Shown in pieces: positions 39,123 through 54,354 of a stretch of DNA of 54,354 nt. Where the stretch lies: assembly GCA_013215655.1 (NCBI GenBank), contig JABSOX010000032.1:1-54354 (forward strand), written 5' to 3'. The notes under the pieces are model-generated. The model was not told the origin of the DNA and ran no database searches. It saw only the letters and a program-made list of their open reading frames with translations. The position numbers and the translations under genes were made by a program. The first letter of the stretch is position 1. Each line of letters opens with the position of its first letter. This DNA comes from Colwellia sp. GTDB taxonomy: Bacteria > Pseudomonadota > Gammaproteobacteria > Enterobacterales > Alteromonadaceae.

Positions 39123-39953
39123 TTAACGAACTCCGGCCGCGGGAGGATTTGATGGTTTTCCTGCAAAACATTGAGCAATATCAAGCCACTGTTGTGCGCA
39201 ACTTCCTTGAATGATTAAATCGGTATCGGCAGCATTTCGTGTTTGTGTTACTACTTGGCAAAAGCCTAACGCCGAACCATTAATTTTATTAGCAGATTGA
39301 GGATCATTCCATTGCCAAATTTCACCTGAAGGAGACGTTAGTTCAACAAAAGGTTTTACTTCGGGAACGGGGATATTTTTCCCTTGAAAAGACCAGCGGA
39401 AAGTTTTGATACCAAGCTCGGCAATATAATAAAGTCTTTGAGTGCTAGTTCTTGTGATTTTTAAGGTATCTAAAATCGATTGACCGTGTGCCCATGTTTC
39501 CATTAATCGTGCGGCAATAAATGACAAAGTACTCATTGGTGGACCAAACCAAGGTAGTTTTTGCTCGGCGGAGTCATCTTGTAAACATTGGATCAATTCA
39601 AGGTAAGTCGTAGACCATTTAGTTAATAGCTGTAGCGGAGGTTGTAAACCGATATGCTCTCGAGCTATTTCAACAAAGCTTTGGGTTTTAGCCTTTTGCT
39701 TAAATTGCTCAACATACTGCTCAAATGCTTGCGGTTGTTGTAGAGCACTTAAACCTTGTAAATCAAAAAAGTGTAAATGTTCAACATGATCATAAATCGA
39801 CCAATTTTTAAATGGGGATTTTTGCTGCCATTGTTGTTCAGTTAATGTTGATAGAACGGCTGCTAACTCTTCATATTCAGCGAGTAAATCTTGACAGATT
39901 TTTTTCATATCGTGTAAATTTATGTATTTGATTTGCTGAGCAGCATAAGACAT
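39123..39953 (-). CDS. DinB-like putative metal-binding protein (TIGR03084 type)
   Basis: A 276-residue cytoplasmic protein. The N-terminal four-helix part (about 16-180) has the layout of the DinB/mycothiol-dependent isomerase superfamily: DLLAEYEELAAVLSTLTEQQW, split here as a sample; NWSIYDHVEHLHFFD with His59, and RLMETWAHGQSILD with a second His. These histidines would form a metal site. I recall TIGR03084 as the best-fitting family. The reaction is unknown. The start used lies right after a hairpin (39954-39983) whose arm supplies GGGAAT as a possible RBS; an internal Met16 is an alternative. It follows the btuB-lipoprotein pair on the same strand. Confidence 0.78.
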   Translation of the reverse strand: MSYAAQQIKYINLHDMKKICQDLLAEYEELAAVLSTLTEQQWQQKSPFKNWSIYDHVEHLHFFDLQGLSALQQPQAFEQYVEQFKQKAKTQSFVEIAREHIGLQPPLQLLTKWSTTYLELIQCLQDDSAEQKLPWFGPPMSTLSFIAARLMETWAHGQSILDTLKITRTSTQRLYYIAELGIKTFRWSFQGKNIPVPEVKPFVELTSPSGEIWQWNDPQSANKINGSALGFCQVVTQTRNAADTDLIIQGSCAQQWLDIAQCFAGKPSNPPAAGVR

Positions 39954-39983
39954 TTATTCCCGCTAATCCATTAGCAGGAATAA
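39954..39983 (-). terminator. Hairpin between the btuB-linked lipoprotein gene and the DinB-like gene
   Basis: TTATTCC-CGCTAA (39954-39966) pairs with TTAGC-A-GGAATAA (39971-39983), with a C/A mismatch. It fills the 42-base gap. It could end the btuB transcript, but it lacks a U tail and overlaps the probable RBS of the next gene, so it may instead modulate that gene's translation. Confidence 0.5.
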
Positions 39984-39995
39984 ATTTAGATTTTG

Positions 39996-41480
39996 TTATT
40001 TTTCAATGAAAACTATTGTCCCTGGATTTAACTCTGTTGTTAATCTTGGGAACTCTAAGGTATTTGTTGCTGTATTGATTACATCAATGCCTGAGTTTTC
40101 TGGATCGCTAATACTAAGCCATAAAAAATTGGCTTCATCTAATGCAATGGATTTGATATTTTCTGAACCAGTATCAACAACATTTTCTGCGGTGATTGCA
40201 CCTGTTGTTGGGTTAAATTCAATTAAGTTTGAAACTTCGTGATATGAAGGTTCAAAAAGTGCTTTACTCGCCACTAAATAACCTTTGTCTGCAGAAACAA
40301 TTACACTGCTAGTAAAAAAAGCACTGACATTTTCGTTAAGTTGATCTGCTGATATCACTGTACGTACTGCGTAACTAGTCGTATTAATTTCTTCGATACG
40401 ACTTAATGATAAATCAAAATCACTGTAGACATTACGTGTAGTAACATAAACCTGCTCATTAGCAGTACTGATGCCATTTGGATTGATGCCACTAAGAGGG
40501 ATGCCCATGACATCATCATCAGCATTGGCATTCGTCTCTATTTCTAAATCAGTAGTTACATCAAAAACGGCAACATAAGCGGTATTACCCGTCCAAGCAT
40601 CAGATAAACGTTGCATAGCGATGTATAATTTTCCGTTTGCAATAGTTGCAGCTGAAGGGCTTGGTGTATCACTACTATTGTTGTCAGGAATATAGCTTGA
40701 TAAATCAAGCACTCCTATTTTAAAGTCTTCAGCTGTGGTTGCTTGTGGGTTAACAATCCACACTTTCGAAGAGCCATAACGCAATATATAAGCTTTAGTT
40801 TCATCAACCGAAATTAATGCTTGTGGATTACGAGTGATAGAGTCTTGATTATCTTGAGTTGAAAAGCTCCACAATTCATTTTCTAAATCATCAGCATTAT
40901 ATTTAGTAATCGTATCAATGAAATAACGACCAATATGATACACATCTGATTTATATGTGCTTAATGTATAATCTGAAGCGGCTTTAATATAATAACCCGA
41001 GTTCACTTGTTGCGTTTGTGCATCGATAGTAATGACTTCTGAACTTGAGTAATCAGGTGCAACGGTTTGTACTAGTGCAAACGAAGGCGTATCTTTTTCA
41101 TCTCCAACTGAAACTTGAATGGCAAGCTGACCCGCTAAATTATCTTTACTATCATCGGTGGCAACAATAGTGACACTAAATGGACCAATATCACCATTAT
41201 CATAATCAGGTGCTTGGATAAAGTTTAAGCTGCCGGTTTGATCAATGGTAAATAGGTTACTTGCATTACCTGTAATACTTAATGTAATTGCATCACCATT
41301 GGCATCGCTAGCAGAATAATTACCGACGTTTATGGTGTTTTCTGCCACTACTGGGCTGCTATCACCACTAACAACAGGTGCTACATTTTTTTCACTTGAA
41401 CCACCGCCACAACCACTTAGTAAGCTGGCGCTTATTATTAGGCTGAGTGGTAAAATTTTATTTTTTAATGTTGATAACAT
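39996..41480 (-). CDS. Outer-membrane lipoprotein with cadherin-like domain and probable beta-propeller, coupled to btuB
   Basis: A 494-residue lipoprotein with lipobox LLSGC (Cys24) and no Asp at +2, so outer-membrane targeting is expected. Residues about 30-130 form a cadherin-like Ig fold (YSASDANGDAITLSITG, NFIQAPDYDNGDIGPF, VTIVATDDSKDN). Residues about 133-494 hold repeating beta units with a YncE/NHL-propeller flavour (NPQALISVDETKAYILRYG, SAATIANGKLYIAMQRL, PNGISTANEQVYVTTRN, KSIALDEANFLWLSISD). Its ATG follows the btuB TAA with no gap, so the two are translated together under the cobalamin riboswitch. Bacteroides BtuG is a surface beta-propeller lipoprotein that captures B12 for BtuB. 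A similar job is an attractive inference, not a demonstrated homology. Confidence 0.8.
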   Translation of the reverse strand: MLSTLKNKILPLSLIISASLLSGCGGGSSEKNVAPVVSGDSSPVVAENTINVGNYSASDANGDAITLSITGNASNLFTIDQTGSLNFIQAPDYDNGDIGPFSVTIVATDDSKDNLAGQLAIQVSVGDEKDTPSFALVQTVAPDYSSSEVITIDAQTQQVNSGYYIKAASDYTLSTYKSDVYHIGRYFIDTITKYNADDLENELWSFSTQDNQDSITRNPQALISVDETKAYILRYGSSKVWIVNPQATTAEDFKIGVLDLSSYIPDNNSSDTPSPSAATIANGKLYIAMQRLSDAWTGNTAYVAVFDVTTDLEIETNANADDDVMGIPLSGINPNGISTANEQVYVTTRNVYSDFDLSLSRIEEINTTSYAVRTVISADQLNENVSAFFTSSVIVSADKGYLVASKALFEPSYHEVSNLIEFNPTTGAITAENVVDTGSENIKSIALDEANFLWLSISDPENSGIDVINTATNTLEFPRLTTELNPGTIVFIEK

Positions 41481-43493
41481 TTATATTCCCTCTAAGGTAT
41501 ATTTTAATTGAATACTACGACCCTGAGCGGGTCTGTTTGCAAGATCTTGGTAGTTGTCATTAAATAAATTATTAATGTTTAATGCCAATTTATGTTTTTG
41601 AGTCTGCCAATTTATTGATAGGTCTGATGTTATGCGATCAGCAGGATTGCCATTGCCGAGTTTATTGTTTTTATTTTCAAATTTATTAGAAAGATTAAAA
41701 TAAAGCTCTTTATCGATATTGGTTTTTAAATTGATTTTCCAGGCATCGTTAATTTGATATTGAAGAGCGGTACTGAATTGTTGGTGATAAATACCGGGCA
41801 ATTTTTTCTGATCAAAGGCACTGAATTTTGAACTGGTTTCGCTATCAATGAGATTACTCTGTAAAATAATCGACAGGTTTTTCATTACTTGATACGTGCC
41901 TTGAAATTCAAAACCAAGCAATTTGGCATTATTTACATTACTGTAACTTCCGACGTTGCTAGAGTTAAAAATAGCTACAATAGAGTTTTCTAATTCTTGT
42001 TGGTAAATTGACGACGAAAAACTAAATTGTTGATAACGATATTGTGCACTTATCGATATGTTTTCAGCTTCTTCTGGCAATAAATTGTCGTTGCCTTTAA
42101 ATGAGCCTCTATCACCAAATAATTCATACAAGGTTGGTGTTCTTATACCCTTACTAAAATTAACCAGCGTTTTAAAATTACCATTTTGATAATTAACCCC
42201 CAGTTCATAAGATAAATAATTATCATTATTTTGATATTTTTCTGCATCATCATGATTAATGGCAATATTGCTATTATCTTCATCTAGCTTGCTAGCTAAG
42301 ACGTAAGAGCTTATTGGTAACGCATTTGGTTGCCATTCAGCTCTTACACCATAGTTAAATTGTTTTTGTTGAGCGGCAATATCACAACTACTGATGCCAT
42401 TACATTGGTTAGGTTTACCATTTCGTTTACTTTTCGAAGTGAATTTTTGTTCATTATAATTTAAGAAAGGTGTTAATTTTAATGTCTGCCAAGTGAACAG
42501 TGGTTTAAAACCTAAGTGTTTCTTTATGGTGTGATATTCACCGTTATTTCTTCTACTCTCATTTGGACTATTAACATAGAGCTCATCTTTGTCTTCGTAG
42601 TTCAGTTCAAATTCGATGTTATCTAACCATGACGAATCACTAAGCCAATTATGCTGATAACTATAACGGATGTTGTCAGATTCTAATTTTGAGCCGTTCT
42701 CAGGCGAATTATTTTGATAGTTAGGTAGCGCTTTTTCTTGGTTATTGTATTGAATGTTCACGCGAATTTGATGTTGACCAAATTGTGCATTTTCATTAAT
42801 AAATAAGGTGTGTTTTTTGAACTCATTATTTTTTAATGGCTCGTTTATTGATGTTGAACTATCGTTGAAACTTTGTGGTACGAGGTAATCATAGTTATTT
42901 TTACTGCTGACATAATTACCGCCAAATGAAAAACTATGGTTTTTAAAAGCATTGTTTTGAATGATATTTATTTCTTGATAATCAAAAGAACCAGCGGCAA
43001 GAGTTATTTTAGTAGTATCTTCTAGCGGATTATAAGTATTAATACGGATCACACCACCAATAGGGGTAGCGCCGGTACCTATTGCTTGATTTTTACTAAT
43101 CTCTATACTTTCAATTTGTTCTGTTGGAATTTGGTTTAAATCGAAACCACCAAATTGACTATCATTAACTAATTGACCATCAATATAAAATTGTACTTGT
43201 TTACCTGTCGAGCCTCTAATGGAAATGGATGTTGGATTACCCAAACCACTTATTTGTCGTATCTGAATACCATTAACGGTTTGTAATAAATCGGATAATG
43301 TTTGTGATGAGTTTACAAAATCATCACGATGCAGTATTTGGTAATTTGGCGAGGTAAAATCTTGACCATTGACGACTTCAATAACTTCAATGTCATCAAC
43401 TTGTTGCGATTGATTAAGCTCTTGCGCGCAAACGTTAAGGCTTAGCAAACTAGCGAAAGCTAATGATATAAAAAGTAATTGACGAAATGACAT
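41481..43493 (-). CDS. btuB: TonB-dependent vitamin B12 receptor BtuB
   Basis: A 670-residue outer-membrane receptor importing cobalamin and other corrinoids. Signal peptide MSFRQLLFISLAFASLLSLNVCAQ; TonB-box-like DDIEVIEVVNG. Plug motifs include TLSDLLQTVNGIQIRQISG, ISIRGSTGKQVQFYIDGQ and IGGVIRINTY. The C-terminal barrel ends NNLFNDNYQDLANRPAQGRS...LKYTLEGI. Assignment to B12 rests on the cobalamin riboswitch directly upstream and the adjoining btu/cob genes as well as the plug sequence. The RBS (GAGG) is held in a hairpin, and the lipoprotein gene follows with zero spacing. Confidence 0.93.
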   Translation of the reverse strand: MSFRQLLFISLAFASLLSLNVCAQELNQSQQVDDIEVIEVVNGQDFTSPNYQILHRDDFVNSSQTLSDLLQTVNGIQIRQISGLGNPTSISIRGSTGKQVQFYIDGQLVNDSQFGGFDLNQIPTEQIESIEISKNQAIGTGATPIGGVIRINTYNPLEDTTKITLAAGSFDYQEINIIQNNAFKNHSFSFGGNYVSSKNNYDYLVPQSFNDSSTSINEPLKNNEFKKHTLFINENAQFGQHQIRVNIQYNNQEKALPNYQNNSPENGSKLESDNIRYSYQHNWLSDSSWLDNIEFELNYEDKDELYVNSPNESRRNNGEYHTIKKHLGFKPLFTWQTLKLTPFLNYNEQKFTSKSKRNGKPNQCNGISSCDIAAQQKQFNYGVRAEWQPNALPISSYVLASKLDEDNSNIAINHDDAEKYQNNDNYLSYELGVNYQNGNFKTLVNFSKGIRTPTLYELFGDRGSFKGNDNLLPEEAENISISAQYRYQQFSFSSSIYQQELENSIVAIFNSSNVGSYSNVNNAKLLGFEFQGTYQVMKNLSIILQSNLIDSETSSKFSAFDQKKLPGIYHQQFSTALQYQINDAWKINLKTNIDKELYFNLSNKFENKNNKLGNGNPADRITSDLSINWQTQKHKLALNINNLFNDNYQDLANRPAQGRSIQLKYTLEGI

Positions 43494-43498
43494 CTAAA

Positions 43499-43516
43499 CC
43501 TCAAAAAATATTGAGG
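43499..43516 (-). promoter_or_regulatory. RBS-sequestering hairpin of btuB
   Basis: On the minus strand CCTCAA (43516-43511), a 6-base loop and TTGAGG (43504-43499) form a hairpin. The 3' arm contains the btuB Shine-Dalgarno GAGG, 5 bases before the ATG. Ligand-controlled formation of this hairpin would block translation initiation, which points to a translational riboswitch. Confidence 0.75.
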
Positions 43517-43564: not shown

Positions 43565-43705
43565 CCGTAGCGCCCACCGCACCGCAAGTAATGTTATTCA
43601 GGCCGGTCTCCGGGCTTAACCTTTTTAAGAAGGTATTACCGTTGCGGGGGCAGCGTCAGAATTAGAGGTAAAGCACCTCATCACTAACTTCCCAGATTAT
43701 CTCTT
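43565..43705 (-). ncRNA. Cobalamin riboswitch
   Basis: Read on the minus strand, the conserved core elements appear in order: GGGAAG...GAGGTGC, GCCCCCGCAACGGTAA, then the B12 box AAGCCCGGAGACCGGCCTG (43617-43599), followed by the L13-like GCGGTGCGGTGGGCGC. These match the consensus of adenosylcobalamin-type riboswitches. It controls btuB and the coupled lipoprotein. Boundaries are approximate. Confidence 0.95.
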
Positions 43706-43738
43706 TTATCATATGAATACTGCGTTGAAACAGAAGTA

Positions 43739-43766
43739 TTTATATGAATATTGAGCACCTAAACAA
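43739..43766 (-). promoter_or_regulatory. Probable promoter of the riboswitch-btuB transcript
   Basis: On the minus strand TTGTTT (43766-43761), a 16-base spacer and TATAAA (43744-43739) precede the aptamer by about 35 bases. The placement fits a transcript that starts just before the riboswitch. Moderate match to sigma-70 consensus. Confidence 0.5.
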
Positions 43767-43824: not shown

Positions 43825-44904
43825 TTAGTTTCCAGTGTTTTTTAGTTCGTTTAGGTTTTTACAAGCTTGACGACAGGCGCTTTCTAAACGCTTAATGGAT
43901 CCTTCTTTGCCTATGCCAAACCTAAGAGTCTCTTGCTCATCAGATAGCCGACAATATATGCCTTGTTGACATAACAAGTGATAGATTTTTTTTGCACTAT
44001 CATGCTGGTGAAAACTTAAGGTTAGGAATAAATCACAGCCTTGAATGCATTTCACTAACTTCTTAGTGAATAGTTGCCACAATAATGCTTCTTGATGAAT
44101 TCGTAGAGAATTCAATTTATTGCATTGCTCTATGTGCCAGTTTGTATCACGTAATGCATGCTCTGCTATTATTTGCGCAGGTCCGTTGACTTGCCATGGC
44201 CCTAATAATGCTTCAAACTTTTGGCACCAATAATTATCAGCCACTAAAAATCCGATACGAATACCGGCTAGGCCAAAAAACTTGCCGAATGAGCGCAATA
44301 CTAAAGTATGACTGTCATTAACTTGGCTACTAAAGGATGGATTATTGGGTATCACATCGATAAAGGCTTCATCCAGTATAAAGAGGCCATTTAGCTGTTT
44401 TAATTTTGCTTGATATTGACTTAATACCTCATGGTTAAATACTTGTCCGGTTGGATTGTTAGGGTTAATGACCACTAAAACACTGTTTGGTTGTAATTTA
44501 GTTATTTCGGGTAAGTTTCCTTGATAAAAATGCAAAGTATAACCAGCCATTTTCCATGCGTGTGCATGTTCTTTGTAACCGCGATATGGCACATATACGT
44601 CTTGGCTTTCAATATTCTTCTGACGATACAATGTGGGTAATGCTTGGATAATGGCTTGACTACCATTGGTTACAACCAGCTGCTGACATTGATAATATTG
44701 CTTTGCTACAGCGATAAGTTCTGAGCTTTGTTGTGGCAATTGCTGCCAAACAGTTAATGGTATATTTGGAATAGGGTAACTTATAGGCGCAATACCTGTC
44801 GATAAATCGAGCCAATCTGCTGTCGGAATTTTATATTGTTCCGCGACCTGATGTAACTGCCCACCATGAATCAATGTCATTTTAACCCAATCATTATAGT
44901 TCAT
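43825..44904 (-). CDS. cobD: L-threonine-O-3-phosphate decarboxylase (CobD/CobC type)
   Basis: A PLP enzyme of the aminotransferase class I fold that makes (R)-1-aminopropan-2-ol phosphate, the linker of the B12 nucleotide loop. The 359-residue protein has the N-terminal IHGGQLHQVAEQY, DLSTGIAP, the NPNNPTGQVF motif and the PLP lysine in RSFGKFFGLAGIRIG. The product is used by CbiB, whose gene is directly upstream. An internal Met9 (MTLIHGG) is a possible alternative start, as neither has a strong RBS. It is last in the long cob operon before the btuB riboswitch. Confidence 0.92.
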   Translation of the reverse strand: MNYNDWVKMTLIHGGQLHQVAEQYKIPTADWLDLSTGIAPISYPIPNIPLTVWQQLPQQSSELIAVAKQYYQCQQLVVTNGSQAIIQALPTLYRQKNIESQDVYVPYRGYKEHAHAWKMAGYTLHFYQGNLPEITKLQPNSVLVVINPNNPTGQVFNHEVLSQYQAKLKQLNGLFILDEAFIDVIPNNPSFSSQVNDSHTLVLRSFGKFFGLAGIRIGFLVADNYWCQKFEALLGPWQVNGPAQIIAEHALRDTNWHIEQCNKLNSLRIHQEALLWQLFTKKLVKCIQGCDLFLTLSFHQHDSAKKIYHLLCQQGIYCRLSDEQETLRFGIGKEGSIKRLESACRQACKNLNELKNTGN

Positions 44905-44911
44905 ACCTATT

Positions 44912-44965
44912 TAGTTAACTTTTATGTAGTTAACTTTTGTATAGTTAACTTTTGTATAGCTAACA
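44912..44965. repeat. 15-bp tandem repeat between cbiB and cobD
   Basis: Units TAGTTAACTTTTATG (44912-44926), TAGTTAACTTTTGTA (44927-44941) and TAGTTAACTTTTGTA (44942-44956), plus a partial TAGCTAACA, fill the 75-base gap. Each unit contains the palindrome AGTTAACT. It could be a slipped-strand repeat changing spacer length, or clustered protein-binding sites. Confidence 0.85.
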
Positions 44966-44979
44966 TATGCGAATAATAC

Positions 44980-46026
44980 TCAAATCCAATCTACTAGCTG
45001 GAAAATAATGGCGAATACCAGCAATATCAAACTAGCCCGACTGACAATGATTAAGCTTGTTAGAATATCATCAGGGGATACTTTACGCCCTTGACCTAAA
45101 GTCACAGAATTTACTATTTCTCCTTGATATTGCGCACTGCCGCCGAGCACTCGATACATGACTGTGGCACCTGATGCCATCACCCAGCCACCGTTATGAC
45201 TTTTGTATCTATTGCCTTGTTGATAGGCATTAAGTATTGCTCTATGGAAGTATCCTTGCTTTATACCTTGTATTGCATAAAGTAAGGCACAGCATTTACC
45301 AGAAATGAAACCCAGCAGATCATCAAGTCTGGCACTAGCGTAGCCAAACTCTTTAAATCGTGAGTTTTTATATCCCCACATCGCATCTAAGGTATTGGCA
45401 AAACGATGCAATATGACCAGCTGTGCTCCCCCGATCAAATAATAAACCAACGATGCAACGACAGAATCATGGCCATTTTCTAACATAGATTCAATTGTTG
45501 CTCTTGACATTTCTTGCTCTGAAAGCGCGTTGGTTTCTCGGCTGACTAAATAACCTGTAAAGTAACGTGCTTTTGTTAAATCACCTGATTTTAGCGACCA
45601 ATAAACTTGCATCGCGTGTTGATGCAAACTATTTAGGCCTATGGCTAAGTACAGTACGGTAGCATCAGCCACTATTTGCCAATACCAAGTAAAATGGTCA
45701 ACTAGGAAAAAATAAAGCACTGGCAATGGTAGAACCAGCAAACTCCAGGCAATTGCGCCAAAGAGCTTTGTTTTGATAGATGATAGCTTCTTAGCATGTT
45801 TTAGTTCACCATCACCATCTATTTCAATATGGTTACTTGGTGTAGTAGCTTGTTTAGGGTTTAGTTTTATTTCGAGCTTATTTGCTAGCCAGCCAAAGCC
45901 AACCAAGTAGTGAAAGTGTTTAGCTTCACCTAAGACTTTATCTAGCAGTAGTGCTAATAAGAGTGTTAAGACACTTCTGGATTCAAGTGCTAATGCGATG
46001 ATTTGATTGAAAGTATTTTCGTTCAA
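44980..46026 (-). CDS. cbiB: Adenosylcobinamide-phosphate synthase CbiB
   Basis: An inner-membrane enzyme that joins aminopropanol phosphate to adenosylcobyric acid. The 348-residue protein has several hydrophobic segments and family motifs: LLLALLLDKVLGEAKHFHYLVGFGWLA (shown as LALLLDKVLGEAKHF), VSRETNALSEQEMSRATIES, and DSVVASLVYYLIGGA. The usual GEP...HP of the N-terminus is GEA...HY here. A charged insert (about 60-85, IEIDGDGELKHAKK) is longer than in E. coli CbiB. It lies 75 bases upstream of cobD, separated by the tandem repeat. Confidence 0.92.
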   Translation of the reverse strand: MNENTFNQIIALALESRSVLTLLLALLLDKVLGEAKHFHYLVGFGWLANKLEIKLNPKQATTPSNHIEIDGDGELKHAKKLSSIKTKLFGAIAWSLLVLPLPVLYFFLVDHFTWYWQIVADATVLYLAIGLNSLHQHAMQVYWSLKSGDLTKARYFTGYLVSRETNALSEQEMSRATIESMLENGHDSVVASLVYYLIGGAQLVILHRFANTLDAMWGYKNSRFKEFGYASARLDDLLGFISGKCCALLYAIQGIKQGYFHRAILNAYQQGNRYKSHNGGWVMASGATVMYRVLGGSAQYQGEIVNSVTLGQGRKVSPDDILTSLIIVSRASLILLVFAIIFQLVDWI

Positions 46027-46094
46027 TGTAAACGTCGCATTAGTATTCTTGGCTAATAGAGTGAATTAAACTGAAATGTTTAGTATTGGTCATA

Positions 46095-46676
46095 TTAAGG
46101 TATTAACTGAAAACTGCTGTTGTGGTGATCATAAGTTAATTGAAACAGGCAACCGTTATTGAATAATTGATAAGCATTATCCGTTGAACTCTCGCCTAAT
46201 TTTGCCAGTAAGCAACGTAAAGCTTCGCCGTGAAATATAATCAATAAATTCTTATTTTTGTGCTTTTGTACCAGCATATAAAGCGTTTGATAAATTCGCT
46301 CAGCACAGCCAATGGAACTTTCACCACCTTCTGGTTTTAATTCGGTGTACTGATGTAATATTTCGTTATAATTTTTGTGGGATTTAAGTTCATCAACATG
46401 TTGTCCTTGCCAATGACCTAAGTCTCGCTCATTGAGCCCATCTAAAGTGATTACAGGTATACACAATTTTTGTTGACATATATTTGCGGTATCAATCGCT
46501 CGCCCTAATGAAGACGAGACGATTAAATCAATTTCTTTATTGATTAACTGCTGGGCAATTTTTTCAGATTGTTGCTTCCCTGTCTCAGTAAGTTTGCTGT
46601 CTAGCTGACCTTGAAAACGTTGCACTTTATTCCATTGGGTTTGTCCATGACGAGCTAAAAATAAGTTCGTTTTCAT
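46095..46676 (-). CDS. cobC: Histidine phosphatase, probable α-ribazole phosphatase CobC
   Basis: A 193-residue phosphoglycerate mutase-like phosphatase. The catalytic RHG motif is FLARHGQTQWN (His10). GLNERDLGHWQG supplies the acidic residue and IIFHGEALRCLLAKLG the second His. CobC removes phosphate from α-ribazole-5'-phosphate or adenosylcobalamin-5'-phosphate. A second histidine phosphatase is encoded at 49793 in the same operon, so which one is the true CobC cannot be told. The gene starts 3 bases after the btuF stop. Confidence 0.82.
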   Translation of the reverse strand: MKTNLFLARHGQTQWNKVQRFQGQLDSKLTETGKQQSEKIAQQLINKEIDLIVSSSLGRAIDTANICQQKLCIPVITLDGLNERDLGHWQGQHVDELKSHKNYNEILHQYTELKPEGGESSIGCAERIYQTLYMLVQKHKNKNLLIIFHGEALRCLLAKLGESSTDNAYQLFNNGCLFQLTYDHHNSSFQLIP

Positions 46677-46679
46677 TTA

Positions 46680-47648
46680 TTAATCTTTCATCTTCGTTTT
46701 TATGTTTTGTTGTTGGTAATACTGACGAGCCTTATCAATACCAATACAAAGTTGTTCCAATTCATTTAGCAGCCGAGGTGTCATACGGTGTAGCTTATCG
46801 GAATTTGGTTGAATAAATTGGTTATGTTTAGCGGCTGGGATTTCTTGCCATTGCGCCCAGTTAACCGCATCAGGGTTGGGTTCACCTTCAGACATAGGTT
46901 GAATGATCAACTCAGGTTTTGCTATGACGACTTGTTCTAAACCAATTTGAGGATAGACGCCTTTATTATTAACAAATGGATTAGTCGCTCCACAAATATC
47001 TAAATGTTGTTGCGGCCAATCATATTTGGCAACCGTGGTTAATGGTCGTGACCATAATTCATAAAAAACCGATATCGGTTTCTTATTTTGATAGGTATTC
47101 CGCAGTTTTTTTAAACTTTCTTCGTATTTCTTTGCTTGATTTTGTGCTTGTTCACCTGCATGGGTGAGACGACCAAAAAGCCTAAGCTCTTGGGCGACAT
47201 CATCAAGAGATTGAGGATCGGAATAAACAATATTTAAACCTAGTTGTTCTAATCTAGCTAAGTCATCACTGGGGTTTCCGGTACGCCAAGCGATGATTAA
47301 ATCAGGTTGATACGCTAATATTTGTTCAATCTTAAGACGCGCATAATTACCAATACGTGGAATTTTATTGGCGGCTTCAGGATAATCTGAATGTTCAGTT
47401 GTACCAATGATTTTATCGCCTACTCCTAATTCAAATAACATCTCAACAATATGGGGGGCAAGAGCTATTATTCTTTTATAGTCTTGATGCTCATGATTCG
47501 TTTGTTGGCCACTATTTGCTTTTTCGTTACTTACCTGCTGATAATTTGAAAAAGCAAATAGTGCAAATGGCACTGACCATAATAAAAATGACCATAACGA
47601 TAATGCTATACATAGTTTGCTGGTTATCTTGTTTTTTATCATGTCCAT
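46680..47648 (-). CDS. btuF: Vitamin B12 ABC transporter substrate-binding protein BtuF
   Basis: A 322-residue periplasmic binding protein. An N-terminal hydrophobic signal (KLCIALSLWSFLLWSVPFAL) is followed by a BtuF/FhuD-type domain: RIIALAPHIVEMLFELGVGD, IPRIGNYARLKIEQILAYQP, DLIIAWRTG, and the conserved C-terminal region NQFIQPNSDKLHRMTPRLL. It delivers corrinoids to BtuCD, encoded at the far end of the cluster. The gene starts 3 bases after the cobO stop. The mature part begins with a Gln/Asn/His-rich linker (about 37-55). Confidence 0.9.
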   Translation of the reverse strand: MDMIKNKITSKLCIALSLWSFLLWSVPFALFAFSNYQQVSNEKANSGQQTNHEHQDYKRIIALAPHIVEMLFELGVGDKIIGTTEHSDYPEAANKIPRIGNYARLKIEQILAYQPDLIIAWRTGNPSDDLARLEQLGLNIVYSDPQSLDDVAQELRLFGRLTHAGEQAQNQAKKYEESLKKLRNTYQNKKPISVFYELWSRPLTTVAKYDWPQQHLDICGATNPFVNNKGVYPQIGLEQVVIAKPELIIQPMSEGEPNPDAVNWAQWQEIPAAKHNQFIQPNSDKLHRMTPRLLNELEQLCIGIDKARQYYQQQNIKTKMKD

Positions 47649-47651
47649 GAC

Positions 47652-48257
47652 TTACCAATCCACGCCTTTTTGTACTCTAATACCATTATCAAAAGCATGT
47701 TTTATTGATTGCACTTCAGAAACTGTATCGGCTAATTCAATCAGTTTACGATGACATGCTCGTCCGGTGATCACCACGTGTTGCATTGCTGGACGATTAT
47801 TTAATGCTTCAATAACGTCATCTAATTCGATATAGCCATAAGTGACCATATAGGTTAATTCATCAAGTAAAATAATATGAATATCAGGATCTTGTAGTAA
47901 TAATTTAGCTTCTTGCCAAGCAAGTTGTGCAGCAGCTGTATCGGCTTCTTTGTTTTGTGTTTCCCAAGTAAAGCCGGTATTCATCACATGTGATTTAACG
48001 CCATGTTGCTTAAGCAAGTTAAGCTCACCGCATTCCCATGTACCTTTAATAAATTGGATAATACCGGCTTTTAAACCATGACCAACTGAGCGAGTGATCA
48101 TGCCAAAACCTGATGTTGATTTACCTTTACCATTACCGGTAATAACTAATAAAAGCCCTTTATCTTCGGTAGCTGCGGCAATACGCTCATCAACTTTTTC
48201 TTTTAGTTTTTGTTGACGCTCTTTGTGGTTTTGTTTCTTTTGTTCGTCACTTACCAT
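47652..48257 (-). CDS. cobO: Cob(I)alamin adenosyltransferase (CobO/BtuR type)
   Basis: A 201-residue cytoplasmic enzyme that moves the adenosyl group of ATP to the cobalt of corrinoids. The P-loop variant is TGNGKGKSTSGFGM, followed by FIKGTWECGELNLL, the LLDELTYMVTYGYI segment and a C-terminus VKSIKHAF...GVQKGVDW-like end (VQKGVDW). The basic Lys/Glu-rich N-terminus (QKKQNHKERQQKLKEKV) is typical of the family. The gene starts 1 base after the cobQ stop, showing tight coupling. Confidence 0.95.
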   Translation of the reverse strand: MVSDEQKKQNHKERQQKLKEKVDERIAAATEDKGLLLVITGNGKGKSTSGFGMITRSVGHGLKAGIIQFIKGTWECGELNLLKQHGVKSHVMNTGFTWETQNKEADTAAAQLAWQEAKLLLQDPDIHIILLDELTYMVTYGYIELDDVIEALNNRPAMQHVVITGRACHRKLIELADTVSEVQSIKHAFDNGIRVQKGVDW

Positions 48258-48258
48258 G

Positions 48259-49800
48259 TTAGTTTCTCCAAGTGGTTAAAATTTGATTAAGTTTTGCTAA
48301 ATCTAAGTGTTCTTGACAAGCATCGGCTAATTTATCAAGGGCAATGTTTTCTTGTTGTTGATGACTTATAGGTGGTGAAATACTAGCGCCACACCATTTG
48401 ATAATAAGTTGTAGGGCTTCACCTTGATCAAATAAACCGTGTAAATAACTACCGGCTATTTGCCCATCATTAGTGACGAGTCCGATATTCTCATTGTCTA
48501 TTTTGATGATCGGCTGCAACGTTTCATTCTGTATTTCTGCAGAGATTAACTGGCTCTGACCCGCATGTATTTCATAGCCGCTAATATTGGCCGTATCGTC
48601 ACTTAATGATAATTCACCACTAACATTAGTTAGTGTTTTATTGGCTGTTAACGTGGTGGTGATAGGCAAATAATTTAGTGCTGAACTAGTTCCTGGCTGC
48701 CCTTCAATACCTAGAGGGTCAGCAATATTTTTTCCTAACATTTGATAGCCACCACAAATGCCCCAAACTTTACCGCCGTAACGTAAATGTTTAGCAATAT
48801 CATCATGCCAGCCTTGTTCTTTTAAAAAGGCTAAATCGGCGCGAACATTTTTACTACCGGGTAAAATAATTAAATCAGCAGCAGATAATGGTGTTTTTTG
48901 TTGTTCGCTGGCATAAATAAACTCTAAATCAATATCTTGATGCCAACGTAAGGGGTCAAGGTCATTATGATTACTCATCCTTGGATAGACAGGTACAATC
49001 ACTTTTAATTTCGGTTTCTCTGTGACTTGTTGAGTATCAACGGCATCTTCAGCGGCAATGGTTAAACCGTGTAAATAGGGGATCACGCCAAGTACCGGTT
49101 TACCCGTTCTCTCTTCTAACCAATCTAAGCCCGATTGCAATAAAGCAATGTCACCTCGAAAACGGTTAATGACAAAACCTACAACACGGTTTTGTTCACT
49201 TTTTGAAAGTAAATCTAAAGTACCGACCAAATGCGCAAATACACCTCCACGGTCAATATCTGCAATTAAGATAACTGGGCAGTCAACGGCTTCGGCAAAC
49301 CCCATATTAGCAATGTCACCCGCCCGTAAGTTTATCTCAGCAGGGCTGCCCGCACCTTCAACCATAATATATTCAAAACGTTTTGATAAACGTTGATGAG
49401 AAGTGAGTACGGCTTGCATCGCCACTTTTTTGTAGTCGTGATAAGCAGCTGCTTCCATATCACTTATCGCTTTGCCGTGAATAATAACTTGTGCACCCGT
49501 ATCTGAGTTCGGTTTAAGCAATACTGGATTAAAATCTACTTCAGGTTCTATATTGGCAGCTCTTGCTTGCACTGCTTGTGCCCGACCAATCTCACCACCA
49601 CAAGCCGTAACTGCACTATTGAGTGCCATGTTTTGTGGTTTAAAAGGAGCGACTTTTTTGTTTTGACGCGCAAATATTCTACAAAGAGCCGCTACCAATG
49701 TGGTTTTACCAGCATCTGAAGTAGTACCTTGCACCATTAAGGTTTTTGCAAGTTGTTGTATAGTATTATGTTCATTACTTCTTATGTGTTTACTATTCAT
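48259..49800 (-). CDS. cobQ: Cobyric acid synthase (CobQ/CbiP)
   Basis: A glutamine-dependent amidotransferase that amidates side chains b, d, e and g of adenosylcobyrinic acid a,c-diamide. The 513-residue length is standard. The N-terminal ATP-binding domain has [25 protein letters not shown] and DIDRGGVFA. The C-terminal triad-type glutaminase domain has the nucleophile in [11 protein letters not shown] and His in [10 protein letters not shown]. The first 8 bases overlap the end of the phosphatase gene at 49793. Its presence without visible ring-synthesis genes means upstream steps must lie elsewhere or that it acts on salvaged precursors. Confidence 0.95.
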
Positions 49801-50467
49801 CAGCTGTTAAACCTGATAACGGCATAGCAATAGCATGTACTTTAATGTCATTACTACTGTTCATTGGATTAATATTACTACTTAGGTGAGTAATGCTAGC
49901 GTTGCCAATTTGTAATTGACTAAAGAGTTTGGCATTTTTCCAATCTAGGCCAAGCACTTCGGCTAAGATCATTCTGATCACACCACCATGCGTAATTAGT
50001 AAGATATTTTCATCTGTATATTTTGTAAGTTGAGCCTGCCATGCATGTTTAATACGAAGGTAAAAATCATTGAGCTTTTCTGCATCGGGTAATGGATATT
50101 TAACTGGATTTTGCCAAAATCTCTCTAGGTCCGTCCAAGGTCTTAGATCATCACCAACCGTATTTGCGATGCTTGGATCCGTATAAGGAATATCGTCAAA
50201 AGCTCGCCCATCATAATCGCCAAAATTTATTTCTTGTAGGTCTTCTATAATGGTAATTGGCTTTTTTATCTGCTGAGAAAAGTTTTGTGCAAGAGTTGCA
50301 CAGCGCTTTAAGGGCGAAGTGAGTACTTGCGTGAACTTATCTTGATGATTGATTAATGTCGTCAGTATTTCATTATCTATTGTTGATGAAACCTCAATAT
50401 CCGTTTTACCGTAAAGAGCTGCAGGGCCGTTAACTTTGCCATGACGGAGTAAATAGATATGACTCAT
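49793..50467 (-). CDS. Histidine phosphatase family protein (second CobC-like)
   Basis: A 224-residue phosphoglycerate mutase-like protein. I start at the ATG at 50467 ([20 protein letters not shown], His9), which lies 10 bases after the cobU stop, not at an in-frame TTG at 50494. Further motifs are [27 protein letters not shown] and [18 protein letters not shown] with the second catalytic His. In the operon it sits between cobU and cobQ, a usual place for α-ribazole phosphatase, but a paralogue is encoded at 46095. One may act on adenosylcobalamin phosphate and the other on a different substrate. Confidence 0.82.
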
Positions 50468-50477
50468 ATGTTTAGGC

Positions 50478-51092
50478 TCATTTGTTTTTCTCAACGATTG
50501 AATCTTTTAATGTGAGTGGAATACCTGCAGTAACTAAGGTGACCTTATCTGCAATTTTGGCAATGGCTTGGTTTAACCACCCGGCATAATCTACATATAA
50601 ACGATTACTTGCACCCAGTGGAATAATACCTAAACCGACTTCGTTGGCGACAAAGGTGATGGTTAAATTTTTGTTTTTTACTGTATTGATTAATGTTGCC
50701 ACTAATTGATCAAAATGCTGCTGTAAGTTTTGTTTAGCATCATCCATCTCAAACTTTTCACCAAAAGAATAAATAAGGTTGTTTAGCCATAGTGTTAAAC
50801 AATCAACAAGGATGATTTGGCTATCAGTACATTCTTCGCTACATTTTTCGTTATATTTCTCGATTAGGCTTGATAGTGCTAAAGGACACTCAACTAATTG
50901 CCAGTTTTTATCTCGATCATCTTGATGTTGCTTAATGCGTTCGTTCATCTCTTGATCAAAAGCGGTTGCTGTGGCGACATATATTAATGGCTGCTCTTGA
51001 GCTTGATTCTGAACTTGACTCAGAGCTAAGCACCACTGTTCAGCAAAGCTTGATTTCCCCGAACGTGCGCCGCCTATAACGAGATGGATCAT
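50478..51092 (-). CDS. cobU: Adenosylcobinamide kinase / adenosylcobinamide-phosphate guanylyltransferase
   Basis: A bifunctional enzyme that phosphorylates adenosylcobinamide and attaches GMP, a key salvage step. The 204-residue protein has Walker A VIGGARSGKSSFAEQW, the RIKQHQDDRDKNWQLVECP segment with the catalytic His, LVDCLTLWLNNL (Walker B-like) and VANEVGLGIIPLGASNRLY. Length is close to the family norm (about 180). Its start overlaps the cobS stop by 4 bases (ATGA). Confidence 0.95.
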   Translation of the reverse strand: MIHLVIGGARSGKSSFAEQWCLALSQVQNQAQEQPLIYVATATAFDQEMNERIKQHQDDRDKNWQLVECPLALSSLIEKYNEKCSEECTDSQIILVDCLTLWLNNLIYSFGEKFEMDDAKQNLQQHFDQLVATLINTVKNKNLTITFVANEVGLGIIPLGASNRLYVDYAGWLNQAIAKIADKVTLVTAGIPLTLKDSIVEKNK

Positions 51093-51919
51093 AAGCTTGC
51101 CCCAGCAAGTTGAATGGTTGTGGTGGCAGTTGCTGCAATATTAGCAGCCGAAAGAGCAACCAGAACAAGATAGATAATTAACTCACTTATTTGCTGACAG
51201 GCACCTAAACAATCACCGGTATAGCCGCCAATTCTGGCATTAAGCCAGCGTTTAAAAAACATTCTAAAAATGAACAGGCTGCTTAAAAGAATGACACTGT
51301 AAAAAAAGGGCTGGAATAATAAGGGTATACAACCAATCAATACTAATATCATCAGCTCATTAGTACTTTGTTTATTAGCTAATGGTTTACTTTTACTGGT
51401 ATCACTGTCACTAACATAATTCATATCAGAAATTAAACTACCCGCAACGGCTCGCGATAGGGCATACCCGAGTATTAATGTATTAATAAACATTGTGCTT
51501 TGAGCAAGCTCTACTAAAACTAGCCATTTTAATGATAACGCCATAAACAAAGTGACTGCGCCATAGGTACCAATGCGACTGTCTTTCATTATGGCTAAAC
51601 GCTTTTCGATAGTCATGCCACCACCAATGCCATCAGCCATATCAGTTAAGCCGTCTTCATGAAAAGCACCGGTGAGTAATAAGCTGGCGATGATAATGAG
51701 ACTTATGGTGATATTGTTGCTGAAGTACGGCGTTAATAATGTATATAAAGTCACTAAAATTAACGCCAGTAAAATTCCTACTAGAGAAAAATAACGACCT
51801 GATTTATTTAATAATTCAGGGCTATAATAACTTGATTTAGGCACAGGAATTCGACTGAAAAAGCCCAGCGCTAAATAAAACAAATTAAGTTGGTAACGAA
51901 AGCTTTTCAAGTTAAACAT
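51089..51919 (-). CDS. cobS: Adenosylcobinamide-GDP ribazoletransferase (cobalamin synthase)
   Basis: An integral membrane enzyme joining adenosylcobinamide-GDP with α-ribazole(-phosphate). The 276-residue protein has multiple hydrophobic segments and family motifs FFSRIPVPKSSYY near the N-terminus, GAFHEDGLTDMADGIGGG (metal/substrate acidic motif), RLAIMKDSRIGTYGAV and GGYTGDCLGACQQISEL. The gene follows cobT by 2 bases and overlaps cobU by 4 bases. Confidence 0.95.
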   Translation of the reverse strand: MFNLKSFRYQLNLFYLALGFFSRIPVPKSSYYSPELLNKSGRYFSLVGILLALILVTLYTLLTPYFSNNITISLIIIASLLLTGAFHEDGLTDMADGIGGGMTIEKRLAIMKDSRIGTYGAVTLFMALSLKWLVLVELAQSTMFINTLILGYALSRAVAGSLISDMNYVSDSDTSKSKPLANKQSTNELMILVLIGCIPLLFQPFFYSVILLSSLFIFRMFFKRWLNARIGGYTGDCLGACQQISELIIYLVLVALSAANIAATATTTIQLAGASL

Positions 51920-51921
51920 GG

Positions 51922-52992
51922 TTAAACCGTTACACCTGCACTTTTAAAACTAGCCATGTCATTGTAAAAATGAGCAGCAGCATGTAATAAAGGTAAAGCA
52001 AGTGCTGCGCCGGTACCTTCACCTAAACGTAAACCTAAATTAAGTAGTGGCTTAGCATCGAGTGTTTTTAATAATAACTGATGTCCTGATTCTTCTGATT
52101 GATGAGCAAAGATTAAATAATCACGAACATTTGGCGCCATTCTTACCGCAAGTAATGCGGCTGTACTGACAATAAAACCATCAATTAAAATGGCAATGCC
52201 TGCTTGTGCAGCGGCAATAATAGCGCCAGTCATTTGGGTTATTTCAAAGCCGCCAACTTCTTTTAAAATGGTTTTAGGATCAGATGAATCAAAGCGAGCA
52301 AGGGCTTGAGTGATCAGTTGTTTCTTTAAGGTGAGTTGCTCTTGGTTGATACCTGTGCCTATACCAACACATAGTTCAACAGGCTCTTTAGTGAGTGCCG
52401 ATAAAATTGCTGCCGCTGAGCTGGTATTACCTATGCCCATTTCACCTAATAACAAAACGCTACAATCACTGTTAATCAAAGGCTCTATCGTTTGTTTGCC
52501 GTAGGATAAACCTTGTTCTACTTGGATTTCAGTCATTGCCGATTGATTGGCAAAGTTTTTAGTACCTGCACCTAAGCGATAATTAATTAAGTTCTTATGA
52601 CGTTTAGCGATAGGGTCAATAATACCAGTATCAACCACTTTAAAGTCAATATTGTTACTACGACAAAAACAGTTTATTGCCGCTCCACCCGCCAAAAAAT
52701 TCAATACCATTTGTCGTGTTACTGCACTAGGTGCAATTGAAACACCTTGCTCACTAATGCCATGATCACCAGCAAAAATAATTACTGTAGGTTTAGATAT
52801 GGAAACCTTATCAACTAATATTCTTTGTTTTTGACTTTGAATTAAGGCAAGTTGTAGTGCAACCTGTTCAAGTTGTCCCAATGAACCAAGGGGTTTGGTT
52901 TTTTGATCTATTTTATTTTGAATAACTGCTTTATATTCGATATTTAAGGGCGTTACTTGTCCAGGCTGCATATTTTTCATGGTATTACTCAA
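51922..52992 (-). CDS. cobT: Nicotinate-nucleotide:dimethylbenzimidazole phosphoribosyltransferase
   Basis: The enzyme activates the lower ligand base to α-ribazole-5'-phosphate. The 356-residue length is standard. Motifs: [50 protein letters not shown], and a C-terminal [14 protein letters not shown] with the catalytic Glu. There is no dimethylbenzimidazole synthesis gene in the window, so the base may come from outside or from genes elsewhere. It lies 40 bases downstream of btuC and begins the tightly packed cobTSU block. Confidence 0.95.
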
Positions 52993-53032
52993 TTATATTT
53001 TTAATGTTATTTAAGTTATATCTATCTTTGGT

Positions 53033-54019
53033 TTACATTTTTCGCATGATTAATAAGAAGAAGATACTGCCAATAGCTGAGGTAATAACACCAATAGGTA
53101 TTTCTTGACCACTTAGTGAAGTGCGCGCCAATACGTCTACCCATACTAAGAAACAGCCACCAAATAAGCCGGTAGCAATAAGCAATCTTGATGTGGTTAA
53201 ACCAACAAAACGACGTACAATATGTGGGATCATCAAACCCACAAAACCAATACCACCACAAAATGCAACAATGACCGCGGTAAGGGCTGCACAAAGTATT
53301 AATACAATCATTCTTAACTTTTCAACATTAACACCTAGTGTACGTGCACTGTCATCACTGAGTAGTAAGGCATCAAGTTGTCGTCCTAATAACAAGGCAA
53401 CGATGGTAGCAACGAGCACTACCGGAAAAATCCACATTAAGGCGGTATGATCAGCTCGGGCAAGGCTTCCCATTAACCAAAAAATCACTCGGTTACTGGA
53501 AAATGCATCACCCATATAAAGGATAAAACTTGTTACCGAACTAAAGAGAAAATTAACAGCAACACCTGCTAATAATAGGTGTTCAGTTTTACGCCAGTTA
53601 TTTCCTATCACTACCACAATGACAATAAATACCGCAAATAAAGCCCCAAAGAATGCAGCTAAAGGTAATGAAAAGAACTGTAAGTTAGCAGGAAGAAAAG
53701 TCGATAAGGTGGCACCTAAACCAGCGCCGGCAATGATGCCAAACAGGTAAGGGTCGGCAAGAGGGTTACGAGTAACATTTTGCATGAGCGCGCCTGCAAT
53801 CGCTAAACCAAAACCAGCCAAAAAGCCAAGTAATACTCGTGGAAAGCGTATTTGCCATAAAATAGTATCGTAAACTGGTTTTTCGCAACCACTGCTAATG
53901 CATTGCCATACCGCGTCATGACCCAATTCAGCAACGCCAAAACCCATGGATAACAATACGGTTAATAGCACTAAACTCGATAATATGAGTAACGTTGATT
54001 TTGTCGATAATCTAGTCAT
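53033..54019 (-). CDS. btuC: Vitamin B12 ABC transporter permease BtuC
   Basis: A 328-residue FecCD/BtuC-family permease with about ten hydrophobic segments. Family motifs: RFPRVLLGFLAGFGLAIAGA, MQNVTRNPLADPYLFGI, GLGATLSTF, LGVNVEKLR and the cytoplasmic EAA-like FVGLMIPHIVRRFVG. It works with BtuD and BtuF to move corrinoids across the inner membrane. Its start overlaps the btuD stop by 8 bases. The B12 assignment comes mainly from gene context, since siderophore permeases share the fold. Confidence 0.92.
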   Translation of the reverse strand: MTRLSTKSTLLILSSLVLLTVLLSMGFGVAELGHDAVWQCISSGCEKPVYDTILWQIRFPRVLLGFLAGFGLAIAGALMQNVTRNPLADPYLFGIIAGAGLGATLSTFLPANLQFFSLPLAAFFGALFAVFIVIVVVIGNNWRKTEHLLLAGVAVNFLFSSVTSFILYMGDAFSSNRVIFWLMGSLARADHTALMWIFPVVLVATIVALLLGRQLDALLLSDDSARTLGVNVEKLRMIVLILCAALTAVIVAFCGGIGFVGLMIPHIVRRFVGLTTSRLLIATGLFGGCFLVWVDVLARTSLSGQEIPIGVITSAIGSIFFLLIMRKM

Positions 54020-54354
54020 TGTTGATCAACTCCGCATCATCATTATTCGTCGTCTGTTGATTATTGCAATTATTATGACTATTACCTGAAAAAGTTATCC
54101 GTGGTGATTGTGTAAAAGGGTTTTTATCAATGTGACAATCTAATTTGAATACTCTACTTAACAGTTTCTGATTAAAAACTATTTCTGGTGTAGCATCAGC
54201 GCACAATTTGCCATTATCGATTAAGACAATACGATCACAGTATTGCGCGGCTAGATTTAAGTCATGGATAGTTAATAATAGGGTTATTTTGAGCTTCTTG
54301 GCTAATTGCAAAATTTGATGTTGATAATAGATGTCTAAATGGTTGGTGGGTTCA
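54012..54354 (-). CDS. btuD: Vitamin B12 ABC transporter ATP-binding protein BtuD (partial, start beyond window)
   Basis: Only the C-terminal ~113 residues are in the window. The frame runs open to the edge, beginning EPTNHLDIYYQHQILQLAKK (end of Walker B and D-loop). The H-loop is LLLTIHDLNLAAQYCDRI, and GKLCADATPEIVFNQKLL follows, as in FecE/BtuD-type ATPases. The tail is Asn-rich (NSHNNCNNQQTTNNDD). It overlaps btuC by 8 bases. The Walker A and signature motif lie outside the window. Confidence 0.9.
   Translation of the reverse strand, partial: EPTNHLDIYYQHQILQLAKKLKITLLLTIHDLNLAAQYCDRIVLIDNGKLCADATPEIVFNQKLLSRVFKLDCHIDKNPFTQSPRITFSGNSHNNCNNQQTTNNDDAELINND

Follow-up and report, generated by a model that had tools for sequence, protein, structure and literature searches.

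A locus of Colwellia sp. (GenBank assembly GCA_013215655.1, contig JABSOX010000032.1) raises the question of whether a gammaproteobacterium encodes a partner for vitamin B12 uptake of the type known as BtuG in Bacteroides. The stretch of DNA that was analyzed, referred to here as the window, comprises 54,354 nucleotides. On its minus strand, a gene for a lipoprotein of 494 amino acids (39996-41480; open reading frame (ORF), AlphaFold2 and Foldseek evidence) follows a gene for a TonB-dependent transporter of 670 amino acids and BtuB-like lineage (41481-43493; Plug and barrel domains, family profile and riboswitch evidence). We consider it likely that the lipoprotein captures corrinoids in the manner of BtuG and acts together with the BtuB-type transporter whose gene precedes its own. 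It is termed BtuG-like, and not a member of BtuG, because its homology to BtuG in sequence, its binding of corrinoids and its complex with the transporter are putative; corrinoid binding, the surface side and the lid mechanism are what we infer from the evidence below.

The two genes were found behind a single regulatory element. The cobalamin riboswitch aptamer RF00174 was matched at 43584-43739 on the minus strand, ahead of the transporter gene, where Rfam cmscan gave 54.9 bits with a gathering threshold of 31.5; this is the one RF00174 match found in the whole 5.56-Mb genome. A sequence-only reading of the locus had described a riboswitch-controlled pair in which the lipoprotein starts directly at the transporter stop codon, and both statements hold: the stop and start codons adjoin with zero bases between them (...TTA GAG GGA ATA TAA ATG). 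A Shine-Dalgarno-like GAGGGA read from the sequence at 41487-41492 (minus strand), inside the transporter reading frame, presumably serves the lipoprotein gene, and its position before the lipoprotein ATG fits translational coupling. No terminator-like site was detected on the minus strand at the junction by pattern scan. The description of the pair as "translationally fused in time" is acceptable only in the sense that the genes are probably transcribed together and coupled in translation. A small hairpin, CCTCAA/TTGAGG at 43499-43516 (minus strand), is paired when the leader is folded to minimum energy (z -3.44 over its full length); it would mask the GAGG ribosome-binding site before the transporter ATG and is a plausible candidate expression platform.

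We sought to characterize the domains and predicted fold of the lipoprotein. The sequence begins with a signal peptide and the lipobox LLSGC (residues 20-24; 41409-41480, minus strand), as previously read, with lipidation at Cys24. Residues 131-494 (39999-41090, minus strand) were assigned to a seven-bladed beta-propeller by AlphaFold2 and Foldseek. The AlphaFold2 model of the mature lipoprotein, computed from a 71-member alignment, reached a mean pLDDT of 93.7 and a pTM of 0.84, and the seven blades were counted by manual strand assignment on the model. Against 350,542 PDB chains in Foldseek, chains of BtuG1, BtuG2 and BtuG3 took ranks 1-11 and 13-15, with XusB at rank 12, the first archaeal surface-layer propeller at rank 16 (E 7.9e-10) and Escherichia coli YncE at rank 42 (E 2.8e-7). 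The top match was BtuG1 with cyanocobalamin (E 3.0e-13; 18% identity), aligned over 378 columns that correspond to the propeller with a TM score of 0.77 by target and 0.58 by query. Judged from the predicted model, BtuG is the nearest solved fold to the propeller, and the earlier suggestion of a BtuG-like propeller gained a confident seven-bladed model with BtuG chains as 14 of its 15 best matches. Matches from a viral fold library were generic propellers only.

Between the lipobox and the propeller, residues 25-130 (41091-41408, minus strand) were assigned to an N-terminal Ig/cadherin-like stalk from a weak protocadherin match and predicted strands. The cadherin-like domain of the sequence-only reading is weakly favored in sequence by that match, the best one in the PDB (E 1.8e-4); AlphaFold2 models this part as a beta-strand domain, and Pfam gave no cadherin match in the lipoprotein. 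The stalk is an elaboration and not a defining part of the family: at least 100 residues precede the propeller in 23 of the 71 aligned members, and mostly 12-41 residues do so in the others.

We next consider whether the lipoprotein is linked to the transporter and to B12 in other genomes. A scan of 84,980 species genomes yielded 94 confirmed relatives, and the counts given here use the best 80 of these 94. A transporter ORF was present in 79 of the 80 loci, and in 78 it immediately precedes the lipoprotein gene in the same orientation; the transporter is convergent in L079, and in L094 the sequence begins 24 bases before the lipoprotein gene. The gap between the genes was at most 79 bp, or the genes overlapped, in 73 of the 78, and it was exactly zero in 18, with the overlaps partly due to over-long ORF calls. 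Alignment A5 left out 10 of the 80 for doubtful starts or incomplete ends, and alignment A6 left out seven (five in which the transporter gene is missing or truncated, and two that duplicate genomes in the set). In a smaller set of 97 other genomes (98 with the window's own), which overlaps the 80 loci (e.g., L039, L042, L055 and L056) and is not independent of them, 11 contained a propeller-covering homologue. A transporter ORF stood directly upstream in all 11 (one cut by the contig end) and a cobalamin riboswitch before the transporter in 10, while the eleventh, L032, lies on a 3.7-kb contig.

Homologues were found in Gammaproteobacteria and in deltaproteobacterial lineages, many of them in metagenome-assembled genomes, so the family is not confined to the lineage of the window. 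The taxa include Colwellia, Cognaticolwellia, Pseudoalteromonas, Paraglaciecola, Psychrosphaera, Catenovulum, Marinobacter, Thalassolituus, Alcanivorax, Hahella, Spongiibacter, Panacagrimonas, Nevskia, Granulosicoccaceae and Desulfobacterales, among others. The family is uncommon, since a random sample of the phylum contained a member in one of 200 genomes, and that was the window's own. No relatives were found among viral contigs, and the plasmid matches comprised two records, both to the N-terminal part only. The distances of lipoproteins and transporters were correlated (Mantel r 0.92; 65 pairs), a value that we do not use as evidence of contact because it was computed without a permutation control and neighboring genes would be expected to show it.

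The riboswitch linkage was assessed with a model built from 13 riboswitches, with an Rfam check on 23 of the 80 loci, including the weak scorers; the rest score at least 42.9 bits. The model placed a riboswitch directly before the transporter in 67 of the 80 loci, and Rfam added L102 and L091, giving 69. Loci were counted as assessable with at least 500 bp upstream of the transporter (75 loci); contig ends lie within 250 bp in L056, L060, L094, L108 and L113. Among the assessable loci, 69 carry a riboswitch directly before the transporter, five have the transporter in a B12 operon and one has none (L110; no riboswitch match in 507 bp upstream). The five operon loci, L036, L038, L041, L043 and L044, are all from Colwellia and carry btuD, btuC, btuR, btuF, btuB and the lipoprotein gene in a row, with no riboswitch directly before btuB; L036 has a cut riboswitch match at the head (23.1 bits). 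The linkage survey that the sequence-only reading had called for thus came out in favor of its proposal, both for the transporter and for the riboswitch. In two further cases, L079:5507-5710 and L084:4726-4914, a cobalamin riboswitch separate from the transporter's lies directly before the propeller gene itself (Rfam 102.5 and 117.3 bits). These argue that the propeller gene is B12-regulated even outside the transporter transcript, and they are the strongest genetic link of the family to B12. It was also noted that L085:7323-7507 holds a further cobalamin riboswitch just downstream of the lipoprotein homologue (116.3 bits), with a score about that of the one before the transporter.

The identity of the transporter was then examined. 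It possesses Plug and beta-barrel domains. With TIGR01779 (BtuB), whose cut-off is 599.7 bits, it scores only 98.8, and the name BtuB therefore has to be justified in other ways. Across the genome, 79 TIGR01779 segment matches were recorded, none over the cut-off, a side observation that marks this genome as rich in TonB-dependent transporters. A 74-member transporter profile against the PDB scored BtuB1 highest (180 bits), followed by BtuB3 (170 and 169), XusA (168.5), six E. coli BtuB sequences (165-161) and BtuB2 (159), with a drop to YncD (132); 10 of the 11 best sequences are therefore BtuB and the remaining one is XusA. The naming of the gene as btuB in the sequence-only reading is thereby favored by the profile and the riboswitch and not by TIGR01779.

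A quick maximum-likelihood tree of 52 transporters (midpoint root, long branches, SH-aLRT support, no bootstrap) was used to place this lineage. It sampled 34 of 76 lipoprotein-linked transporters, picked by hand, and 13 of the 14 found without a lipoprotein (L143 was dropped for a masked stretch). These 14 came from 20 riboswitch regions of lipoprotein-less relatives, hand-picked from the riboswitch list for comparison; 14 of the 20 carry a transporter, and a propeller homologue was found on that strand in none of the 20. All 34 sampled lipoprotein-linked transporters fell on one side of a branch with an SH-aLRT of 100. The other side held the 13 riboswitch-linked transporters from lipoprotein-less relatives, together with three further transporters from the window's own genome and, from E. 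coli, BtuB and PqqU. Because of this split and the comparison regions without a propeller homologue, we distinguish two kinds of riboswitch-linked B12 transporter, one with a propeller partner and one without; their median lengths are 683.5 and 635 amino acids, respectively. E. coli BtuB is likewise a TonB-dependent transporter and is matched by sequence profile, but it differs in its length (614 versus 670 amino acids), in its grouping with the lipoprotein-less riboswitch-linked transporters and in its next gene, which is murI, with no lipoprotein. In the lipoprotein-less relatives, the gene after the riboswitch-linked BtuB was often that of a secreted DsbA-like protein of 207-231 amino acids. 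Examples on the plus strand are L128:2565-3188, L131:2502-3125, L136:2428-3054 and L144:2585-3280 (PF01323 in four of four tested), and visual inspection showed similar genes in L132 and L133; the pattern would place a disulfide oxidase beside btuB.

Conserved residues of the propeller were mapped across the 71 aligned members. D170, Y263 and R291 are invariant (71 of 71), N218 and N333 occur in 70, R234 and Q290 in 69 and Y235 in 66, and position 185 is R or K in all 71. By our own assignment of the predicted strands, these polar residues are found on four adjacent blades, in each case at the D-A/B-C end. Cyanocobalamin is held in BtuG2 through 13 hydrogen bonds contributed by blades 1 to 4 (PMC10404256). 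The four-blade cluster is a parallel to those blades of BtuG2 and not a residue match.

Several observations weigh against a BtuG-like capture protein. The fold alone is no proof of common descent with BtuG, because many propellers resemble the model, with 529 Foldseek matches well below 0.001. No BtuG match was obtained in the PDB with the single sequence or with a 12-member full-length profile, so sequence homology is not claimed. A 12-member profile of the propeller returned six PDB sequences, all of BtuG type and near copies of one another, at a non-significant E of 0.26-0.4. The 71-member profile returned 17 sequences, the top three being sensor-kinase propellers (E 1.2e-6, 0.0013 and 0.0013), and nine BtuG-type chains at a non-significant E of 0.01-0.6, of which seven were identified by title or paper and two (8puj and 8baz) by molecule name and matched stretch only. 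Taken alone, the transporter sequence has a better match in XusA (3.4e-12) than in BtuB of E. coli (5.5e-9), each confined to the plug, and the modeled transporter, which ranked OprC first in a fold search, could not be assigned to one kind of transporter in this way. E313 and P245 are invariant at the opposite end of the propeller, where they could touch the transporter, and the loops are acidic at both ends (mean -10.4 and -13.5), so charge singles out no binding face. Lastly, most gammaproteobacterial outer-membrane lipoproteins face the periplasm.

As far as profiles go, sequence homology of the lipoprotein to BtuG is only hinted at. The word "analogue" in the sequence-only reading may accordingly be too weak or too strong, homology being hinted at and surface exposure presumed. 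A 2018 paper that searched 313 gut genomes with BlastP at E 1e-10 reports BtuG homologues only among Bacteroidetes (PMC6143338). It is very unlikely that the lipoprotein would reach E 1e-10 or better to a Bacteroides thetaiotaomicron BtuG, because the profile searches of the PDB, which includes BtuG chains, gave an E of 0.01 at best. No Pfam or NCBIfam model was found to cover the family. The lipoprotein resembles BtuG1, BtuG2 and BtuG3 of B. thetaiotaomicron in being a seven-bladed propeller lipoprotein with its gene beside btuB, in its cobalamin-riboswitch context and in having them as nearest solved fold. It differs in its 10-18% identity in fold alignments with no significant profile match, in the extra stalk domain of the Colwellia protein, in the expected lack of a Bacteroidetes-type export signal and in its occurrence in Gammaproteobacteria and deltaproteobacterial lineages.

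The similarity of the transporter to XusA raises the alternative of a XusB-like lid for a siderophore or other metal complex. The XusAB system of Bacteroides likewise pairs a TonB-dependent transporter with a seven-bladed propeller lipoprotein lid, and the consulted portion of its description gives a siderophore ligand class and mentions no cobalamin riboswitch (PMC13142918). XusB stands at rank 12 in the fold search, and XusA heads the PDB matches obtained with the single transporter sequence and comes fourth by profile. We regard this alternative as very improbable, given cobalamin riboswitches before the transporter in 69 of the 75 assessable loci and separate ones before two homologues, B12 salvage genes adjoining in the window, and a XusB fold score below that of BtuG.

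An equally improbable alternative is that the propeller only helps the transporter to assemble or supports its structure, and binds no ligand itself. The strict co-occurrence alone would be compatible with such a role, and invariant residues also occur away from the presumed binding end. The clustering of near-invariant polar residues on four adjacent blades, at a single end of the propeller, speaks for ligand binding instead, and the nearest folds are all ligand binders.

The side of the membrane on which the lipoprotein resides was also considered. A lipobox was called by script in 69 of the 80 homologues, two of these calls (L079 and L106) being doubtful. Of the 11 without a call, L072 and L095 have an NGC lipobox by eye; the other nine, L068, L084-L087, L091, L102, L113 and L114, are deltaproteobacterial and seem, from their sequences, to be secreted without a lipid anchor. 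Because the unlipidated calls are nearly all deltaproteobacterial and the other two are NGC by eye, predicted lipidation is a feature of the gammaproteobacterial members. Among the 64 members with a Cys start, residue +2 is Gly in 34, Ser in 13 and Asp in three; Asp at +2 is an inner-membrane retention signal in E. coli. The segment after the Cys is rich in Gly, Ser, Asp and Asn, with a mean net acidic charge of 1.8 over +2 to +12 (64 members), a start that we take to resemble that of MtrC of Shewanella and other surface lipoproteins. The genome also encodes a type II secretin, and type II secretion is a possible export route to the surface. A search for the Slam export family (PF04575) gave no match, as did its controls, and is uninformative. 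Surface display is what we infer from these features.

A B12-binding propeller lipoprotein could instead face the periplasm, take the corrinoid from BtuB and give it to BtuF, an arrangement that we judge unlikely, though less so than the two alternatives above. Gammaproteobacterial lipoproteins commonly stay on the inner leaflet, and the E. coli propeller YncE, at rank 42 in Foldseek, is encoded beside the transporter gene pqqU (yncD). That E. coli pair resembles the locus in the adjacency of transporter and propeller genes, but PqqU falls outside the lipoprotein-linked group and YncE is a weaker fold match with no sequence-profile relation. BtuG is much nearer in fold, and hhalign of the family profile with YncE gave a probability of 1.2%. 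The Gly/Ser/Asp/Asn-rich, on average acidic segment after the Cys also points away from a periplasmic position, though it is no proven surface signal, and the type II secretin gene offers a possible export route.

The genes next door, on which the sequence-only reading of the pair is silent, were characterized by NCBIfam scans. Upstream of the transporter on the same strand (43825-54353, minus strand; 43.8-54.3 kb), a cluster of B12 salvage and uptake genes comprises cobD, cbiB, a cobC-like gene, a btuF-like gene, cobA/btuR, cobQ, a second cobC-like gene, cobU, cobS, cobT, a btuC-like gene and a btuD-like gene, the last interrupted by the window end. The matches include threonine-phosphate decarboxylase (cobD), two ribazole-phosphatase-like proteins and an adenosyltransferase, and several lie below equivalog cut-offs, e.g., BtuF, CbiB and BtuC. 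The corrin-ring enzyme CbiC had no match in the genome, in a search whose controls matched in seven of 14 genomes. Because salvage and uptake genes are present and CbiC was not found, the organism looks like a corrinoid salvager; the missing CbiC match fits this and was counted in favor of corrinoid capture. On the other side of the pair, the next gene after the lipoprotein gene is of the TIGR03084 family (39123-39953). Between them lies an A+T-rich inverted repeat, TTATTCC.GCTAAT..ATTAGC.GGAATAA at 39954-39987, which may terminate the transcript and is absent from the list of the terminator scan.

Under the capture reading, scarcity of cobalamin would let the riboswitch permit expression of transporter and lipoprotein from one transcript, and the lipoprotein would be anchored in the outer membrane via Cys24. 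The propeller would bind cobalamin or a precursor at one of its ends, sit over the mouth of the transporter and pass the corrinoid on for TonB-driven import. BtuF and BtuCD could then deliver it to the salvage enzymes encoded next door.

In the portion of the 2018 paper used here, BtuG-type capture appears as a Bacteroidetes trait, with no homologues outside the phylum among the 313 gut genomes (PMC6143338), and as hitherto described it is tied to competition in the gut. By titles and abstracts, we found no paper on such a protein in Gammaproteobacteria in the open-access literature; subscription journals and preprints were outside this scope. With somewhat less assurance than for the lipoprotein itself, we favor the broader view that, in marine Gammaproteobacteria and in deltaproteobacterial lineages, a whole branch of BtuB transporters is served by a dedicated surface-exposed, corrinoid-binding propeller lid. 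Lid capture would then be much older than the Bacteroidota or have arisen twice, and gammaproteobacteria would display lids without the Bacteroidetes export signal. If true, the occurrence of a BtuG-like partner in bacteria that live free in the sea, a habitat poor in B12, would imply an older origin of the strategy or more than one, and the locus would provide a second, easily tested model of lid-assisted B12 capture. It raises the cell-biological question of how such a lipoprotein would reach the gammaproteobacterial surface, and it proposes a function for a family without a Pfam or NCBIfam model. The locus suggests that the capture of vitamins with the aid of a lid may occur more widely than has been assumed.

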